This document shows, piece after piece, positions 24,667 through 39,953 of a stretch of DNA of 39,953 nt. A program made the position numbers and the translations under genes. Numbering within the stretch: the stretch's first letter is position 1; the number at the start of each line of letters is the position of its first letter. Origin of the DNA: Labilibaculum filiforme (GTDB lineage: Bacteria > Bacteroidota > Bacteroidia > Bacteroidales > Marinifilaceae); NCBI RefSeq assembly GCF_002843315.1, contig NZ_MVDD01000026.1, positions 1 to 39,953 of the forward strand, read 5' to 3'. The notes beneath the pieces were generated by a model. It saw nothing but the letters and a program-made list of their open reading frames with translations, ran no database searches and was not told the origin of the DNA.

Positions 24667-27600
24667 TTATCGTGCGAATTTTTTCTTATTAAATCTCTGC
24701 TCAAAAATTCCCAATAATTTCTTAAATAATCCGTAATACAGGATGATATAAAGAGAAAATGTAGAAATCCATATCACCAGAATATTTACCCAATACGTGT
24801 CGAAATATTGGCCCAAAATTCTTTTCTGAGGAGCATAAAAGTGTGCTTTAATAAAGTGTCCTTCTGGATTTCTGTAAATAGGATCAATTTTTTGAAATAA
24901 TCTTCCTTTGTATTCAATAATACGTTCGATATCATTCGAATTTCTAACAAATTCGGTAAGACCATCATTCGCGTATGATTTTTTCATATTTACGAAGGAT
25001 TGTTTATCTAAGAATCCTTTTTGTAACTCGGTTAAACGTTCATCTTTTTTATGGTTCGATACATTGTATAAATTAATGTAGTATCGATTTAACTTCTTAA
25101 AATACTCGCGTGTTGCCTTAATTACATCGTCATTTAAACTGTCAGGATTTAGCTGTTTTAAATGATCAAATGGAATTGCTATTTTCTCCAAATCTTCTAT
25201 CGAAAGCTCATTTCGAAGAAGTAGTAAGCTTTCCGCAAGTTCCTTCTGTTTTTCTGGTAATTTTAGATAGCGTTCGCTAGTATTTAATTTGTTTTTAAGT
25301 ATCGGCAACCAATAATTTTTACGGTAATCTGCTTTACTCATCAACTTCTCGTAGATATAAAAGTTAGCCATGTATTCGTTGTCCTTATACTGTTTTACGG
25401 CTAAAGCTTCATAAGCCCAACGAGCAGTTATAATTTCACCATACCAAGGTATTGTATTGGGAGTAGAAATGGTTGGATTAAGCTTGTCGAACTTTACAAT
25501 TATACCACTTAAAATTAGCTGTGGTATTAGTAGGAAAGGAATTAAAATATAAATAGTAATTACAGTTTTAAAACTATCAGAAATAATTAAACCAAGCATA
25601 TTCGCAAAGCACCAGGCACTGAATAGTGCAAGCCAATATTCAAAAAACATTCCTTTAATTTCCAGTATAGAATTGCCTATTATTGTAAATAGAAAGGCTT
25701 GAAAGGCTGATATTGAGAATAAAATAACAATTTTAGAAAGTAGATAACTAAACTTACTTAAATTTAAAAAGCGTTCTCTTTTAAGAATTTTTCGATCCTT
25801 AATAATTTCTTCGGCACTAAGTGTTAAACCAATAAATAAAGCAACAATTACCGACATAAAAAGATAGACCGGAAGGTTGCTATTGTTACTAAATGTATAG
25901 CCTAAATCATTTGCAACATCAATATTGTAAAATTTAATTATATAACTTAAAAGAAAAGCTAAGAGCGGTGTTTCAAATAAATTAATAAATAGGTATTGAC
26001 GATTGGCTAGTTTAGAAATTACATCCCGTCGCACAAAAACAAGGAATTGTGTGAAGATATTCGGAATTTTGAATGTTACTGGTGGTAATTCCTGAGTATC
26101 TTCTATTGGTTTGTTAGTACTAACATACTCCTCAAACTTTTTATGCCATTGTATTGGCGATACTTTTCGAACTTGTGTAGGTCTGCCATATTCATCCAAG
26201 ACTTCAGATTCAATAATATTAAAAATCAAATCTGCATCCACATTACCACACGACGAGCACTCGCTTTCGGTGCGATTTGCGCGCATGGTTTGCGATTTGA
26301 AATAGGTTATTGCATCCAATGGATTTCCATTAAAAATGAGATAACCACCAGTATCTAAAATTAGTAGGCGGTCGAACATTTTAAAGATATCCGATGAAGG
26401 TTGATGGATTACGACAAAAATTAATTTTCCTTTTAGGGCCATGTTTTTAAGCAGGTCCATGATTTTTGCAGAATCTCTTGATGATAAACCCGAAGTAGGT
26501 TCATCAAGAAATAATACGGATGGTTCACGAATTAATTCTAAAGCAATATTTAATCGCTTTCGCTGTCCACCACTAATTTTTTTATCTAAAGGATTTCCTA
26601 CCTTAAGATTTCGAGCATTGTATAAACCTAAGTCTTTTAATAAGTTTAATACTATTCGAATTAACTGAAAGGTACTGTATTTGTCGAAGCAAAGTTTGGC
26701 ATTAAAATATAAGTTTTCGAATACAGTTAGCGATTCTATCAGTAAATCATCTTGAGAAACATGACCAACAACACCTTCGAGTTGTGACTTGTCTGTAACA
26801 ATATTGTATCCATTAATTTCTACGCTTCCATCACTAGGGTTTTCCGATCCATTTAGTACATTTAAAAGTGTTGTTTTTCCTGCACCACTCGATCCAATAA
26901 TCCCAACCATTTTTCCTGATTCTTCTTTAAAAGAAAGATCATGTACACCAATATTATTTTCTTTAAACCGATATTCAATATTTTTGGTTTCGAATACAAC
27001 TCTTTTTTGATCCAGATCGCGGTGAAAAGTGGTTGCAATATCACTAAAATAAATCGGATCTATTTTAGGGTTGCGAATAGATGAGCCTTGGGTTAAGAGA
27101 TGTACTCTTTCCGGATTAAGGTTCTGACCGTTCATAACCAACTCTTCTATTCCTTTGAAGCGCAAAACAAACATGTCAACTCGCTTCAAACGAAGAATTT
27201 TGATTTCACCAATTAAACCTTCCGAATAGTAATGTTCTCCTATTTCAAAGGTTTTGTTTTCATTACTAACGGTTAATAAACGTTCCGATCGAATAATTTC
27301 ATCAAAATCATTCAGTACAAAATTCTTTAAACGATCATATCCTCCAGCAGGAAGGTTAAAAGTGTCAGCAACAGTTTCAACAAATGCAAATTCTTGATCG
27401 CTGATTTCCTCTTCCGATTTTAGAAATTCTAAAAGTTGGATAAGAACAATAACTTTCTGACGAACAATTAGTTCTTCATTTATTTCGGTACATATGCGAA
27501 GCACTCTCACTGAGCTAGCTGAAGTGTATTTTTTTATTTTAGTAGTTCTGGTAGTGCGTTTCTGGTTCGCTTCGTAGTGCTGATCGTATAAGCTAAGATA

Positions 27601-27735
27601 TTCTTCAGCTGTTTCTTGATCAAGTTGTTGTTTTAGATACCTAGAAACCATTCTTCGCCTCTCAATTGCTGAACTTTTTGGGTGAGCAATGATTGCAAAT
27701 AATTGCATTAAAGCCTTAAGAATTCGTTCACTCAT
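24667..27735 (-). CDS. ABCG-like ABC transporter (ATPase and permease fused) with TerB-like and FHA-like N-terminal regions
   Basis: It is an unusually long half-transporter of 1022 residues. About 1-150 is helical and resembles a TerB domain (EEEISDQEFAFVETVADTFNLP). About 160-245 looks beta-rich and FHA-like (GEIKILRLKRVDMFVLRFKG, GSSIRNPKIDPIYF). The ATPase (about 250-470) has Walker A GSSGAGKTT near 281, signature SGGQRKRL near 387, Walker B LFLDEPTSG near 408 and HQPSSDIFKMF near 445. A CSSC pair lies near 493. An ABC2-type membrane domain follows, with an approximately 230-residue soluble insert (about 740-975) before the last helix. It is third in an operon with two exported proteins. 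The substrate is unknown. Confidence 0.88.
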   Translation of the reverse strand: MSERILKALMQLFAIIAHPKSSAIERRRMVSRYLKQQLDQETAEEYLSLYDQHYEANQKRTTRTTKIKKYTSASSVRVLRICTEINEELIVRQKVIVLIQLLEFLKSEEEISDQEFAFVETVADTFNLPAGGYDRLKNFVLNDFDEIIRSERLLTVSNENKTFEIGEHYYSEGLIGEIKILRLKRVDMFVLRFKGIEELVMNGQNLNPERVHLLTQGSSIRNPKIDPIYFSDIATTFHRDLDQKRVVFETKNIEYRFKENNIGVHDLSFKEESGKMVGIIGSSGAGKTTLLNVLNGSENPSDGSVEINGYNIVTDKSQLEGVVGHVSQDDLLIESLTVFENLYFNAKLCFDKYSTFQLIRIVLNLLKDLGLYNARNLKVGNPLDKKISGGQRKRLNIALELIREPSVLFLDEPTSGLSSRDSAKIMDLLKNMALKGKLIFVVIHQPSSDIFKMFDRLLILDTGGYLIFNGNPLDAITYFKSQTMRANRTESECSSCGNVDADLIFNIIESEVLDEYGRPTQVRKVSPIQWHKKFEEYVSTNKPIEDTQELPPVTFKIPNIFTQFLVFVRRDVISKLANRQYLFINLFETPLLAFLLSYIIKFYNIDVANDLGYTFSNNSNLPVYLFMSVIVALFIGLTLSAEEIIKDRKILKRERFLNLSKFSYLLSKIVILFSISAFQAFLFTIIGNSILEIKGMFFEYWLALFSAWCFANMLGLIISDSFKTVITIYILIPFLLIPQLILSGIIVKFDKLNPTISTPNTIPWYGEIITARWAYEALAVKQYKDNEYMANFYIYEKLMSKADYRKNYWLPILKNKLNTSERYLKLPEKQKELAESLLLLRNELSIEDLEKIAIPFDHLKQLNPDSLNDDVIKATREYFKKLNRYYINLYNVSNHKKDERLTELQKGFLDKQSFVNMKKSYANDGLTEFVRNSNDIERIIEYKGRLFQKIDPIYRNPEGHFIKAHFYAPQKRILGQYFDTYWVNILVIWISTFSLYIILYYGLFKKLLGIFEQRFNKKKFAR

Positions 27736-35768: not shown

Positions 35769-36140
35769 ATGAATGATTTAACCAAAGCAGAAGAACAGGT
35801 AATGCAAATTGTATGGGATTTAAAAGAGACGGCAGTAAGAGATGTTGTTTCTCGTTTTCCAGATCCTAAACCAGCTTACACAACTGTTGCTACAGTTATG
35901 AATGCATTAGATAAGAAAGGTTTTGTAAATAAAGTGTCGGCAGGTAAATCACATCTTTTTTCTGTGAAAATATCAAAGGAGGATTATTCGGGATTTAAGG
36001 CTGGAAGTCTAGTGAAGAATTACTTTAATGGTTCATTTTCAAGTATGGCTTCTTTTTTTGCCAAGGATAATAAGTTGAGTATTCAGGAATTGGAAGAGAT
36101 GATAGAAATAGCCAAAAAACAAATAGAAAAGGAGAAATAG
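35769..36140 (+). CDS. BlaI/MecI/CopY-family transcriptional repressor
   Basis: It is a winged-helix repressor of 123 residues: MNDLTKAEEQVMQIVWDLKE, then the recognition region PKPAYTTVATVMNALDKKGFV (about 33-53), and a C-terminal dimerisation part ending in LEEMIEIAKKQIEKEK. In the beta-lactam systems the partner M56 peptidase triggers its cleavage; here the M56 gene starts 2 bp after the stop codon. It probably represses its own operon through the dyads at 35687-35742. The regulated target beyond the operon is not evident, and no beta-lactamase gene is nearby. Confidence 0.93.
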   Translation: MNDLTKAEEQVMQIVWDLKETAVRDVVSRFPDPKPAYTTVATVMNALDKKGFVNKVSAGKSHLFSVKISKEDYSGFKAGSLVKNYFNGSFSSMASFFAKDNKLSIQELEEMIEIAKKQIEKEK

Positions 36141-36142
36141 AT

Positions 36143-38851
36143 ATGATCGTTTTATTTGAATACTTATTGCAGGTATCGTTTATTTTAGCTTTGTTTTATG
36201 CTATTTACTATCTCATTCTACGTAATGAACGATTTTTTGTGGAAATACGAATTTACTTGATAATTAGTATTCTTCTGTCACTTCTATTGCCATTTGTGAG
36301 AATACCTTACACTGTTATTGTTGAAACGGTCCAAGCTTCTGTTCAATCGGACTTGATTCCTATGTTTTCTGGAGTAATGGATGTGGAGCCAACAAAACAA
36401 AACTACTTTACGATGTCGAATATGTTATTGATTGGATATTTAATTGTAGTTGCTGTCTTATTGATTCTTAGCCTGCTGAAAATAAGTCAAATATGCAGGT
36501 TGGTGTTGGGTAAAAAGTATACTATAATTGAAGATTGTAAGCTAGTTATATTGGATAAATATATACCAGCATTTACCTTCTTCGGATATATCGTAATGAA
36601 TAGAGAGGAGTTTACCGATGAATCTCGAACAAATATATTAGCACATGAAAAAGTTCATGCAGACCAAAAGCATTGGATCGATCTGCTTTTAGTCGAATTG
36701 TTAACCATATTAGTTTGGTTTAATCCAATTGTATGGCTTTATCAAGTAGCAATAAAACAAACGCATGAATTATTGGCCGATGATGGAGTTATAGCGCGTG
36801 GCTTCAATATTGGGCAATATCAGGCAACTTTAATTAATCAATTAATGGGAACGGAAGTATTAGGCTTGGCCAATAACTTTAACCATTCCATTACTAAAAA
36901 GAGAATGATTATGATGTCAAATATAAAAAGCCCAAAAAATAGGCGCTATAAATTATTGATAATGATTCCGGCTGTACTTGCCATACTTCTTTTTAATTTA
37001 AAAATTGTAGAGGTGCAAGCTCAGGAAAAAACAATAAAAGAGGTTGTAAATGTAACAACGGTTTCTGGACAAGTTCTTAATGAAGATAATGAGCCAATTG
37101 CAGGAGTTGCAGTATTGGTTCAAGACTCTAAAACAGGAACAGTTACTGATATGGATGGTAAATTTTCTCTTGTAGTACCATTAGATGCTAAACTTGTTTT
37201 TTTAGGTGTTAATTTCAATAAAGAGATAATCTCTGTAAAAGGATTTATGGAGTATGGCAAGAAAACAGATAGTGGTTACGATATGAATGTTCAACTAAGT
37301 TCTTCATCTGCAAAAGAAGTTAGAGAACAGAAAACTTACAAAGGGGAACCTATTTTTGTGATTGTAGAAGACATGCCTGAATATCCAGGAGGACCAAAAG
37401 CTTTACGGGAGTATATAGCCGAAAATGTAAAGTATCCTGCAGAGGCAATTAAAAATAATATTCGTGGACGGGTATTCGTAACTTTTGTGGTTACTAAGGA
37501 CGGGAATGTTGATCAATCTCGTGTAGTTAGAGGTGTTGAACCTTCTTTAAATGCAGAAGCAGTTCGTGTTATTAATACAATTCCAAAGTGGAAACCTGGA
37601 AAACAAAGAGGTCAGGCTGTAAATGTGGCTTATACAGTTCCTATTAATTTTGATTTCGAGGATGATACAACGAAAGAAGAAGAGGAGAGAAAGGCAAGTT
37701 CGGATTCGAAGGGGGAACAAATTTTTGTTAAAGTAGAAAAAATGCCTCAGTACCCTGGTGGATCTGAAGCTTTATTAGCCTATATCGAAGAATCAACAGT
37801 TTATCCATCGGTAGCTTTTGTAAATGGAATTAAAGGTAGAGTATTTGTAACTTTTGTAGTAAATAAAGAAGGAGATGTAGATCAGGCTCGGGTAGTTAGA
37901 GGAGTGGAAACAACTTTAGATGCTGAAGCATTGCGTGTAGTTAAATCATTGCCTAAGTGGACTCCTGGTTATGAGAAGGGAAAAGCCGTAAGTGTTTCTT
38001 ATACCGTACCAATTAATTTTGATTTTAACGATGATAAAAAAATAGATGAAGTAAAGGTTGAAGGAAAGAGTAAAATAAACCAATTGGATGGTACTGCTCC
38101 TAAGTTTCCTGGAGGAGAATTGGAATTACAGAAATTTGTAGCACGAGGTGTGAAGTATCCTAAAGACGCTCAGGAAAAAGGAGAGGAGGGAAGAGTGTTT
38201 GTTACATTTACTATCAATAAATTGGGTATTGTTGAAAGTGTTCGTACTGCGAAAAGTGTTTCACCTTCTTTGGATGCAGAAGCCATTCGTGTGATTAAAA
38301 CATTGCCTACTTGGATTCCTGCAAGTAGGAATGGTGAGTCTGTTGAGGCGACTTACACATTACCTATTAATTTTGAACTGAAAGATAATCAAGGTGTTAC
38401 TGTGATGGGTGAAGCTGAAAAAGAAGAGTTTACTAATAACGACGAGTCTGGTTCAACTATTACAATGCTTAATAAAACGGAAAATAAAAAGACTAGCACG
38501 GGAAATAAGACTTATAATGGCGAACCTGTTTATGTTTTAGTGGATGATATGCCGAAATATCCAGGAGGAGCTTTGAAGTTAAAAGAGTATATCGAAAGTG
38601 AGGTTTCAAAATTGGATTCAAAATATATTATTCATAAACGATGTTTTATTACATTTTTAGTTACAAAGACTGGTGCGGTTGATAATTTAAAAATTGCTCG
38701 TGGCACTAATAATGTTGTGGTAGATAATAAAGCACTAGAAATTATTAAGAATATGCCTAAGTGGACACCAGGTTATGAGAAGGGCATAGCCGTTAGTGTA
38801 TCTTATACTGTGCCAATTAATTTTGACCTTAAGAATGATGAGAAGAAGTAA
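36143..38851 (+). CDS. M56 (BlaR1-like) metallopeptidase with a carboxypeptidase-regulatory-like domain and four TonB C-terminal domains
   Basis: This is a 902-residue inner-membrane protein. The M56 part (1-290) has four predicted helices, HEKVH (168-172) and a downstream HELLADD (Glu209) as zinc ligands. After the last helix (about 272-287, IPAVLAILLFNLKIV) the periplasmic portion has a beta-sandwich typical of TonB-dependent receptors (VSGQVLNEDNEPIAGVAV, about 307-388). Four TonB_C repeats follow at about 402-507, 525-628, 646-747 and 793-902, each with a (Y/F)PGG and a YTVPINF- or YTLPINF-type motif. It is coupled to the BlaI-type gene. Probably it senses an envelope or outer-membrane receptor state and relieves repression. 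Confidence 0.88.
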   Translation: MIVLFEYLLQVSFILALFYAIYYLILRNERFFVEIRIYLIISILLSLLLPFVRIPYTVIVETVQASVQSDLIPMFSGVMDVEPTKQNYFTMSNMLLIGYLIVVAVLLILSLLKISQICRLVLGKKYTIIEDCKLVILDKYIPAFTFFGYIVMNREEFTDESRTNILAHEKVHADQKHWIDLLLVELLTILVWFNPIVWLYQVAIKQTHELLADDGVIARGFNIGQYQATLINQLMGTEVLGLANNFNHSITKKRMIMMSNIKSPKNRRYKLLIMIPAVLAILLFNLKIVEVQAQEKTIKEVVNVTTVSGQVLNEDNEPIAGVAVLVQDSKTGTVTDMDGKFSLVVPLDAKLVFLGVNFNKEIISVKGFMEYGKKTDSGYDMNVQLSSSSAKEVREQKTYKGEPIFVIVEDMPEYPGGPKALREYIAENVKYPAEAIKNNIRGRVFVTFVVTKDGNVDQSRVVRGVEPSLNAEAVRVINTIPKWKPGKQRGQAVNVAYTVPINFDFEDDTTKEEEERKASSDSKGEQIFVKVEKMPQYPGGSEALLAYIEESTVYPSVAFVNGIKGRVFVTFVVNKEGDVDQARVVRGVETTLDAEALRVVKSLPKWTPGYEKGKAVSVSYTVPINFDFNDDKKIDEVKVEGKSKINQLDGTAPKFPGGELELQKFVARGVKYPKDAQEKGEEGRVFVTFTINKLGIVESVRTAKSVSPSLDAEAIRVIKTLPTWIPASRNGESVEATYTLPINFELKDNQGVTVMGEAEKEEFTNNDESGSTITMLNKTENKKTSTGNKTYNGEPVYVLVDDMPKYPGGALKLKEYIESEVSKLDSKYIIHKRCFITFLVTKTGAVDNLKIARGTNNVVVDNKALEIIKNMPKWTPGYEKGIAVSVSYTVPINFDLKNDEKK

Positions 38852-39474: not shown

Positions 39475-39662
39475 GGTGTTAATTTTTTAATGTACTGATA
39501 AAAATAGAAAATAATATGTTGATTTATTATACCTGGAATGCTAAAACCTACCATTTTAGCTGGTTTTGTTAGCTAAAATAAAAAGTAGTAAAACAGAAAA
39601 AGCTTGGATCCCCATCCAAGCTTTTCTACTAACCACTATTTACTAACCTAAATCTATTCTCT

Positions 39663-39728
39663 ATGAAAAAACGTTTACCACTCGTTTACCTTACAAACAT
39701 ACGGGATTGTTTAGTTAAGTGCCTTTAA
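39663..39728 (+). CDS. Possible 21-residue peptide in repeat unit 1
   Basis: The ATG follows a leader reading aacctaaatctattctct, a sequence type seen before SusC-like receptor genes in Bacteroidota. The peptide begins MKKRLPLVYL and ends CLVKCL*. It may be a leader peptide, a relic of a signal-peptide coding start, or chance. No Shine-Dalgarno sequence is present. Translation is unproved. Confidence 0.3.
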   Translation: MKKRLPLVYLTNIRDCLVKCL

Positions 39729-39866
39729 CAGAAGTTAAAGAATGCTAAAACCTACCATTTTAGCTGGTTTTGTTAGCTGAAATAAAAAGTAGTAAAACAG
39801 AAAAAGCTTGGATCCCCACCCAAGCTTTTCTATTAACCACTATTTACTAACCTAAATCTATTCTCT

Positions 39867-39932
39867 ATGAAAAAACGTTTACCACTCGTTTACTTCACAA
39901 ACATACGGGATTGTTTAGTTAAGTGCCTTTAA
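39867..39932 (+). CDS. Possible 21-residue peptide in repeat unit 2
   Basis: This is the same ORF as in unit 1, with a single residue change (Leu10 to Phe, CTT to TTC) and an intact stop codon. Both base changes in the ORF fall in that codon; the frame is kept, which is compatible with either recent duplication or coding selection. Confidence 0.3.
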   Translation: MKKRLPLVYFTNIRDCLVKCL

Positions 39933-39953
39933 CAGAAGTTAAAGAATGCTAAA

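Follow-up and report, generated by a model that had tools for sequence, protein, structure and literature searches.

RNA-based control of polysaccharide uptake is known from gut Bacteroides, and published accounts describe several systems against which the present locus can be set. In Bacteroides thetaiotaomicron, the small RNA (sRNA) FopS (Rfam RF04319) pairs near the start codon and represses susC translation, and RbpB counteracts it; there are 14 FopS paralogues, which have sigma-ABfr promoters, and the FopS RNAs are tied to RbpB (PMC11697453). DonS, an sRNA of Bacteroides fragilis covered in the same source, represses a glycan-utilization operon (PMC11697453). The consensus of Bacteroides sigma-ABfr promoters is given as TAnnTTTG with TTTG at -33 (PMC7366714). 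Tandem sibling sRNAs are described from other phyla, where they include OmrA/OmrB, PrrF1/F2, AbcR1/2 and the csRNAs (PMC4211561).

We analysed a stretch of 39,953 nucleotides from Labilibaculum filiforme (the window), the right end of which holds a tandem repeat of 204 bp. Judged from the sequence, it is very likely that each repeat unit is an sRNA gene on the minus strand. The best explanation of the locus goes further, and we hold it with considerable confidence: each unit would be a complete gene for an sRNA of about 100 nt that is antisense to susC starts and down-regulates glycan-uptake operons.

Layout and probable transcribed strand of the repeat units

The repeat (39536-39953, period 204) comprises two full units that are 98% identical over 204 nt and the beginning of a third, as a preliminary description of this DNA had stated (Table 1). 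The array also continues past the window, as anticipated there: after a run of 230 N comes one more unit, of which the promoter half is present, and then a last unit that is truncated and has no promoter (C26:40275-40418). Extension to the right thus reached the end of the array, where a sulfatase gene follows and not susC, while the total number of units is hidden by the gap. On the left the array is flanked by a methyladenine glycosylase gene, and contig C26 contains no susC homologue over the cut-off. The window's left end holds two further tandem repeats, at 77-175 (48 bp x 2.1) and 311-612 (130 bp x 2.3). Elsewhere in the window, positions 35769-38851 (+) encode a penicillinase-repressor-type regulator and then a 902-aa M56 peptidase protein, the latter with a CarboxypepD_reg-like domain and four TonB_C stretches.

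Table 1. Positions of the array features within the window.
Feature	Position	Strand	Remarks
Array unit 1, complete predicted sRNA gene (promoter, seed, terminator)	39536..39739	-	
Array unit 2, second complete predicted sRNA gene	39740..39943	-	
Unit 3, start	39944..39953	-	followed by the 230-N gap (C26:39954-40183), then C26:40184-40418
Unit 1, predicted sRNA core (seed and terminator)	39590..39669	-	R1 match of 103.8 bits; itself a row of R1
Unit 2, predicted sRNA core	39794..39873	-	R1 match of 102.6 bits; also a row of R1
Unit 1, predicted seed, about 45 nt	39628..39671	-	antisense to susC translation starts
Terminator hairpin AAAAGCTTGGAT-GGGG-ATCCAAGCTTTT	39598..39625 (unit 1), 39802-39829 (unit 2)	-	
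-7 box TATGTTTG (TAnnTTTG)	39694..39701 (unit 1), 39898-39905 (unit 2)	-	
-33 region TTAAC, unit 1	39714..39718	-	17 nt upstream of the -7 box start
Upstream promoter element CTTTAACTTCTGTTAAAG (the 7-bp hairpin)	39723..39740	-	its TTAAC 37 nt upstream of the -7 box start
9-bp hairpin	39553..39579	+	spacer beyond the sRNA terminator
21-codon ORF	39663..39728 (unit 1), 39867-39932 (unit 2)	+	not conserved across the family; judged no gene

All three hairpins attributed to the unit are present, with arms at 39553-39561/39571-39579 (9 bp, by eye), 39598-39609/39614-39625 (12 bp) and 39723-39729/39734-39740 (7 bp, CTTTAAC/GTTAAAG, again by eye), and the 21-codon ORF exists in both units. Two details need amending. 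The A-to-G change in the first stem of unit 2 is real and lies at 39779, one position from where it had been placed (39780), and the A-C mismatch noted in the 12-bp hairpin of that unit occurs on the plus strand only, the minus strand having a G.U pair there. The region of the 9-bp hairpin differs in sequence in the array on contig C19 and in relatives.

On the minus strand, the end of the arm of the 12-bp hairpin leads into TTTTTCTGTTTT (39601-39590), an arrangement like that of an intrinsic terminator. The predicted transcript of unit 1 would extend from about 39687, a start placed by means of the -7 box, down to 39590. The "SusC-like leader plus ATG" of the earlier account is the complement of the unit 1 seed; a susC-like leader in raw sequence can thus be the reverse side of an antisense gene. 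Base changes in the terminator stems discriminate between the strands. Watson-Crick pairs account for 826 of the 923 stem cells in 78 distinct aligned copies (from the 96 copies at 40 bits or more described below), and minus-strand G.U pairs for another 89; one cell is A.C, which would be G.U on the plus strand, and the remaining 7 are of other kinds. Although copies share descent, so that such conservation counts are not independent, 89 G.U against 1 A.C is strong evidence for a minus-strand RNA. The covariance model R1 was built from 10 copies of the L. filiforme genome. In the terminator, 98.3% of 119 cells are paired, 4 of the 12 pairs have changed on both sides and the covariation score is higher than in all 500 shuffles; the number of doubly changed pairs was matched by 37 of the 500, and further pair types number 10 against a shuffled mean of 11.0. 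Paired changes have preserved the terminator stem, contrary to the decay in relatives that would have spoken for a neutral repeat. The predicted RNA fold is modestly better than that of shuffled sequences (z -1.65; 12 of 200 as good), and the unit 1 seed is unpaired in the centroid fold and partly paired in the minimum-energy fold.

These observations bear directly on a plus-strand interpretation, suggested at the outset as an attenuator or leader-peptide array, in which the repeats would form a 5′ leader and translation of the ORF, or the hairpins, would control read-through. A plus-strand ATG does stand behind a susC-like leader, and a sulfatase gene on the plus strand begins about 260 bp after the last unit. 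The frame of 21 codons is, however, kept in only 25 of the 96 copies, the others ranging from 2 to at least 52 codons; the ATG is missing in 3 of 96, and one copy in the L. filiforme genome reads MKKR-stop. It is only on the minus strand that stem changes leave pairing intact (89 to 1); the T tract and the promoter are on that strand as well, and arrays at other sites have different neighbours (GNAT and ABC genes). The short ORF is not conserved among these copies, as it should be in front of a gene controlled by a leader peptide, and we regard the leader interpretation as extremely improbable. Another suggestion made at the outset, a family of small RNAs, proved right as to the kind of element and wrong as to its strand.

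Promoter, copies and distribution of the probable sRNA family

The minus-strand promoter lies outside R1 and is hence not modelled by it. Of 93 distinct copies, 74 carry an exact TAnnTTTG at a distance of 20-60 nt upstream; for random places the figure is 3.0%. Alignment on a -7-like box was possible for 91 copies, and 84 of these show TTAAC at -36 to -38; the consensus of box-aligned copies has a second TTAAC at -17. The -7 box is like that of Bacteroides sigma-ABfr promoters, whereas the -33 part is TTTG there and TTAAC here. A matrix of the promoter only was made from 19 of 23 non-redundant promoters, 4 odd rows being dropped. When applied to 800 kb of the L. filiforme genome without the arrays, it found a single site scoring above 14 (27.9, at C4:6737), and this site is followed directly by a CATAGATT seed and a terminator, which make up a member of the family absent from the R1 list. 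A matrix of the full 23 rows scores C4:6737 at 26.0 and one other site at 14.1; a Markov control of three sequences (2.4 Mb) gave 2 sites above 14 and 0 above 20. In five loci with better copies there are 13 matrix promoters, of which 11 lead to a seed and terminator, 1 to an assembly gap and 1 to an insertion sequence, and eight loci with weaker R1 matches, including C3:63051 (itself among the 14 R1 matches of the genome), have 0. Within the DNA examined, the promoter is exclusive to this sRNA family. The member found through the promoter only (G000:C4:6737 (+), in L197) is divergent and consists of TTTTATCATAGATTGAGATTGGGGTTAAATT with a hairpin and a T tract.

Not every copy has kept the promoter. 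Copies C26:45916 and C26:40329 have lost theirs, C24:4663 has a promoter match and C27:18172 has none. The weak R1 matches probably include some that are no genes, and since C27:18172 and C3:63051 lack a promoter, neither is relied upon. In a genome that has an RRM_1 protein (G064, locus L239), a FopS match over the Rfam cut-off shows TACCTTTG and an upstream stretch TTTTTAAGCTCCATTACTT that by eye resembles the element here and sits about one helical turn nearer to the -7 box; the upstream element may be older than this sRNA family.

R1 was built from the lineage's own copies, with C24:4663 and C27:18172 excluded from the alignment as divergent and having stems misaligned by MAFFT, and distant relatives would escape it. 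At E<=0.01 it gives 14 matches in the L. filiforme genome, in arrays and as single copies (C26 and C19, 5 each; C24, C8, C3 and C13, 1 each), and 106 in 32 fetched loci. Of the latter, 96 at 40 bits or more were kept, and the 10 below that score, which included matches antisense to true copies, were excluded from the counts. Five genomes of the genus (G002, G003, G004, G006 and G007) have an array of 4 to 7 copies between GNAT and ABC-transporter genes, with copies spaced mostly 197-218 apart, and five further loci carry an array on a stretch with the same ABC-transporter gene. In L. filiforme this site is split: the GNAT gene and 2 copies end contig C26, and 5 copies and the ABC gene begin C19.

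The end of C26 (L012:7010-7141) and the start of C19 (L013:1-140) carry the ends of an IS3-type element, which interrupts one unit of the ancestral array between its -7 box and its seed, with an apparent 3-bp repeat, TAC (by eye). The sRNA of that unit is promoterless, and its orphan promoter is now directed into the element. A full relative of the element, named by eye, lies at L213:15616-16736; hmmscan with the 22-aa start of the IS open frame gave no match. An ABC-transporter protein of 1022 aa is encoded next to the ancestral array (L013:1276-4344 (+)) and has a paralogue of 41% identity in the window, at 24667-27735 (-).

The window array is a second array, 5.3 kb from the GNAT-ABC site. 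Among the R1 matches listed for nine genomes of the genus it was seen in L. filiforme only, a status that is not firm because 3 of the 9 (G001, G005 and G008) are drafts with copies on short contigs or low completeness. In a tree of 42 of the 96 copies (those at 80 bits or more), units cluster within arrays for G003, G016 and the window, and units of others mix between species, with 15 of the 36 inner branches weakly supported; this fits an old array that was amplified locally. A rival explanation is a neutral relic, a decayed susC gene start amplified by slippage, as the preliminary description had envisaged in its "relics of a repeated receptor-gene start". On the plus strand the units do resemble a susC leader followed by an MKK... 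start, and arrays amplify and can arise at new sites, the window array apparently being a case in point. Across genera, however, promoter, seed and terminator are conserved while the spacers diverge, the terminators have changed in both arms and the coding frame is not kept, all of which makes a neutral relic very improbable. The units behave instead as maintained minus-strand genes; a susC start as the source of the seed is possible and would be compatible with the sRNA interpretation.

The homologous units sought elsewhere are present in other genomes, which speaks against a neutral local duplication: at E<=1e-4, R1 matches 24 of the 56 family genomes, in 7 of 17 genera. Of 295 other genomes drawn evenly from the phylum (L. 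filiforme excluded), 4 have one match each, and a search of 84,980 named species genomes for the exact seed pattern returned 49 stretches, all from Labilibaculum, Marinifilum or Marinifilaceae. RRM_1, the domain of RbpB, was found neither in the L. filiforme genome nor in any of the 24 carriers (0/24), and it is present in 28 of the 32 other family genomes. This absence is a striking correlation without independent repeats; the 24 carriers may go back to one event, and the mutual exclusion of RRM_1 and sRNA is therefore to be read only as a correlation. Elsewhere in the order, among 16 genomes from other families, 7 have no RRM_1 and yet at most 2 weak R1 matches and no arrays, which indicates that absence of RRM_1 does not by itself accompany arrays. 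Weak single FopS-like matches occur in RRM-positive genomes (L240 and L242).

Predicted targets and proposed mode of action

Duplex energies, which disregard mRNA structure and competition, were calculated against gene starts taken at the first ATG of the frame, in fetched stretches that had been selected as rich in susC. Over 588 gene starts (-80 to +60), the unit 1 seed gave a mean of -23.6 kcal/mol for 13 susC genes and of -16.3 kcal/mol for the other 575 (p about 1e-7), and its best target is susC C4:89829-93155 at -32.7 kcal/mol. Seven seeds were tried and all favour susC (p 3e-8 to 1e-3). For the seed of C26b the top four targets are all susC, as are 9 of the best 25; the preference is weaker for the C8-type seed (2 of the best 25; p 0.001), and unit 1 lies near C26b with 8 of 25. 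With the unit 1 seed, the predicted duplex extends across the start codon in 22 of 26 susC genes; with that of C26b, it does so in 21 of the 26. A first target-site pattern was rejected, being one base out of register with the array copies; its backward control also gave more matches (22 and 19) than the pattern itself (7 and 5).

The remaining places among the best 25 are held by other genes, 17 for unit 1, 16 for C26b and 23 for the C8 type, and this raises the possibility that the sRNAs are real and their main targets broader, namely mRNAs of exported proteins with A-rich MKK... starts, of which susC would be the most visible class. The 5′ TTTTTTCATAG fits ATGAAAAAA starts generally and on its own yields part of the susC preference. 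Shuffling of the seed separates the two components. Against all 26 susC genes over the cut-off minus 100 other genes, the unit 1 seed shows a difference of -7.4; 60 shuffled seeds gave -0.65 (sd 0.84; 0/60 as low), and 40 seeds with TTTTTTCATAG fixed and the rest shuffled gave -3.2 (sd 0.97). About 40% of the unit 1 preference thus survives when TTTTTTCATAG alone is kept, and the intermediate value indicates that the preference is split between a general anti-start tip and the remaining seed. Since susC pairs better even in comparison with the TTTTTTCATAG-fixed seeds (0/40 as low), and the four best C26b targets are all susC, we consider the broader target set unlikely, though it deserves more weight than the other alternatives. 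By these computed energies, susC is likely to be a main target, and the match of the sRNA tips to the starts of sugar-importer genes suggests that the RNAs are probably used in switching off sugar uptake.

A mechanism is proposed in which the sRNAs would bind at about -40 to +10 of susC-type mRNAs and cover the start codon. This would block susC translation and lower the output of glycan-uptake operons, a mode of repression modelled on B. thetaiotaomicron FopS, for which it has been demonstrated experimentally (PMC11697453). The dosage of the RNA could be set by the length of the array, and most copies would respond jointly to one regulator through their shared promoter element: as this dedicated element is common to most copies, a single regulator would drive about a dozen sRNAs at once. 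Dosage control of this kind, with one common regulator and without RbpB, is plausible.

High copy number and uniform sequence would also suit a sponge or decoy, whose chief effect would be to titrate an RNA-binding protein, or some factor that binds leaders, and not to silence susC. A related arrangement is described in Bacteroides, where RbpB titrates FopS off its targets (PMC11697453). A partner of the RbpB kind is, however, missing here, the RRM_1 search having been empty in L. filiforme and the 24 carriers, and we think a sponge improbable. Returning to sRNAs that act on susC, we tentatively suggest, as an idea that may well fail, that marine Marinifilaceae control glycan import through an RNA regulon of their own, in which one regulator would govern about a dozen anti-susC RNAs, arrays that grow and shrink would serve as dosage control and the FopS-RbpB circuit would have been rewired, in a lineage lacking RRM proteins, to work independently of RbpB. 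A FopS-like family in genomes where no RRM_1 was found makes the need for a protein partner, and the replacement of that partner, accessible to experiment. Tandem arrays with a promoter that is confined to the family in the DNA sampled would be a simple setting in which to study the dosage of sRNA genes, and the promoter element itself provides a route to the regulator via its binding site.

Comparison with described small RNAs

The closest likeness is to FopS. Both combine a single-stranded 5′ seed with a Rho-independent terminator, many paralogues, sigma-ABfr-type promoters and a seed directed at susC starts. The FopS consensus of Rfam, GUGUUUUUCAUgGUAUUAGAUUUAAGGUUAAuAAA, can be aligned with gaps to GUUUUUUCAUAGAaAAUAGAUUUAGGUUAGUAAA in the unit of a relative; the R1′ seed lies near the 5′ end in this gapped alignment and is partly paired in the minimum-energy fold, and a Rho-independent terminator follows it. 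The copies are paralogous (14 matches) and have promoters of the sigma-ABfr type with TTAAC, not TTTG, at -33; complementarity of the seed to susC initiation regions is, in the present case, computed. The differences are equally clear. The seed here is extended by TAGTGGTTAG, the terminators differ, tandem arrays of up to 7 copies and a fixed TTAAC upstream element are present, and none of the 24 carrier genomes has an RRM_1 protein; the RRM-1 protein RbpB was likewise not found in L. filiforme. The word "tandem" does not occur in the main text of PMC11697453.

The gathering score of the Rfam model is 56 bits, and the L. filiforme genome gives 11 matches at E<=1, with 23.5-29 bits and 0 over the cut-off. 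Among the 56 family genomes, RF04319 exceeds the cut-off in one (G064, a non-carrier); below the cut-off, at E<=0.01, it matches 11 of the 24 carriers and, besides G064, 7 of the 32 non-carriers. The Bacteroides sRNA BTnc231 (RF04180) has a nearly identical 5′ end, ACGUUUUUUUCAUAGAGAUUUAGA, and matches the minus strand of the window with E 0.003; the score is 27 bits against a cut-off of 80, and the long internal part of the 154-nt model is missing here. The name BTnc231 was not found in the main text of the literature searched, and in that literature we found no published account of an sRNA family of this kind from Labilibaculum or Marinifilum. Matches to MicC, MicX, cyano_het_sRNA, OrzO-P and others in Rfam were far below their cut-offs and are taken as chance.

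DonS is comparable as an sRNA against a glycan-utilization operon, a role that is predicted here. DonS is divergent to its operon, whereas the window array lies between methyladenine glycosylase and sulfatase genes, not beside susC, and its seed matches many susC genes. With the tandem sibling sRNAs the family shares the adjacency of related sRNA genes; the tandem cases consulted in PMC4211561 are pairs, and the arrays here reach 7 copies. By analogy, the family described here would be FopS-like in its working, and by the Rfam criterion it stands outside FopS.
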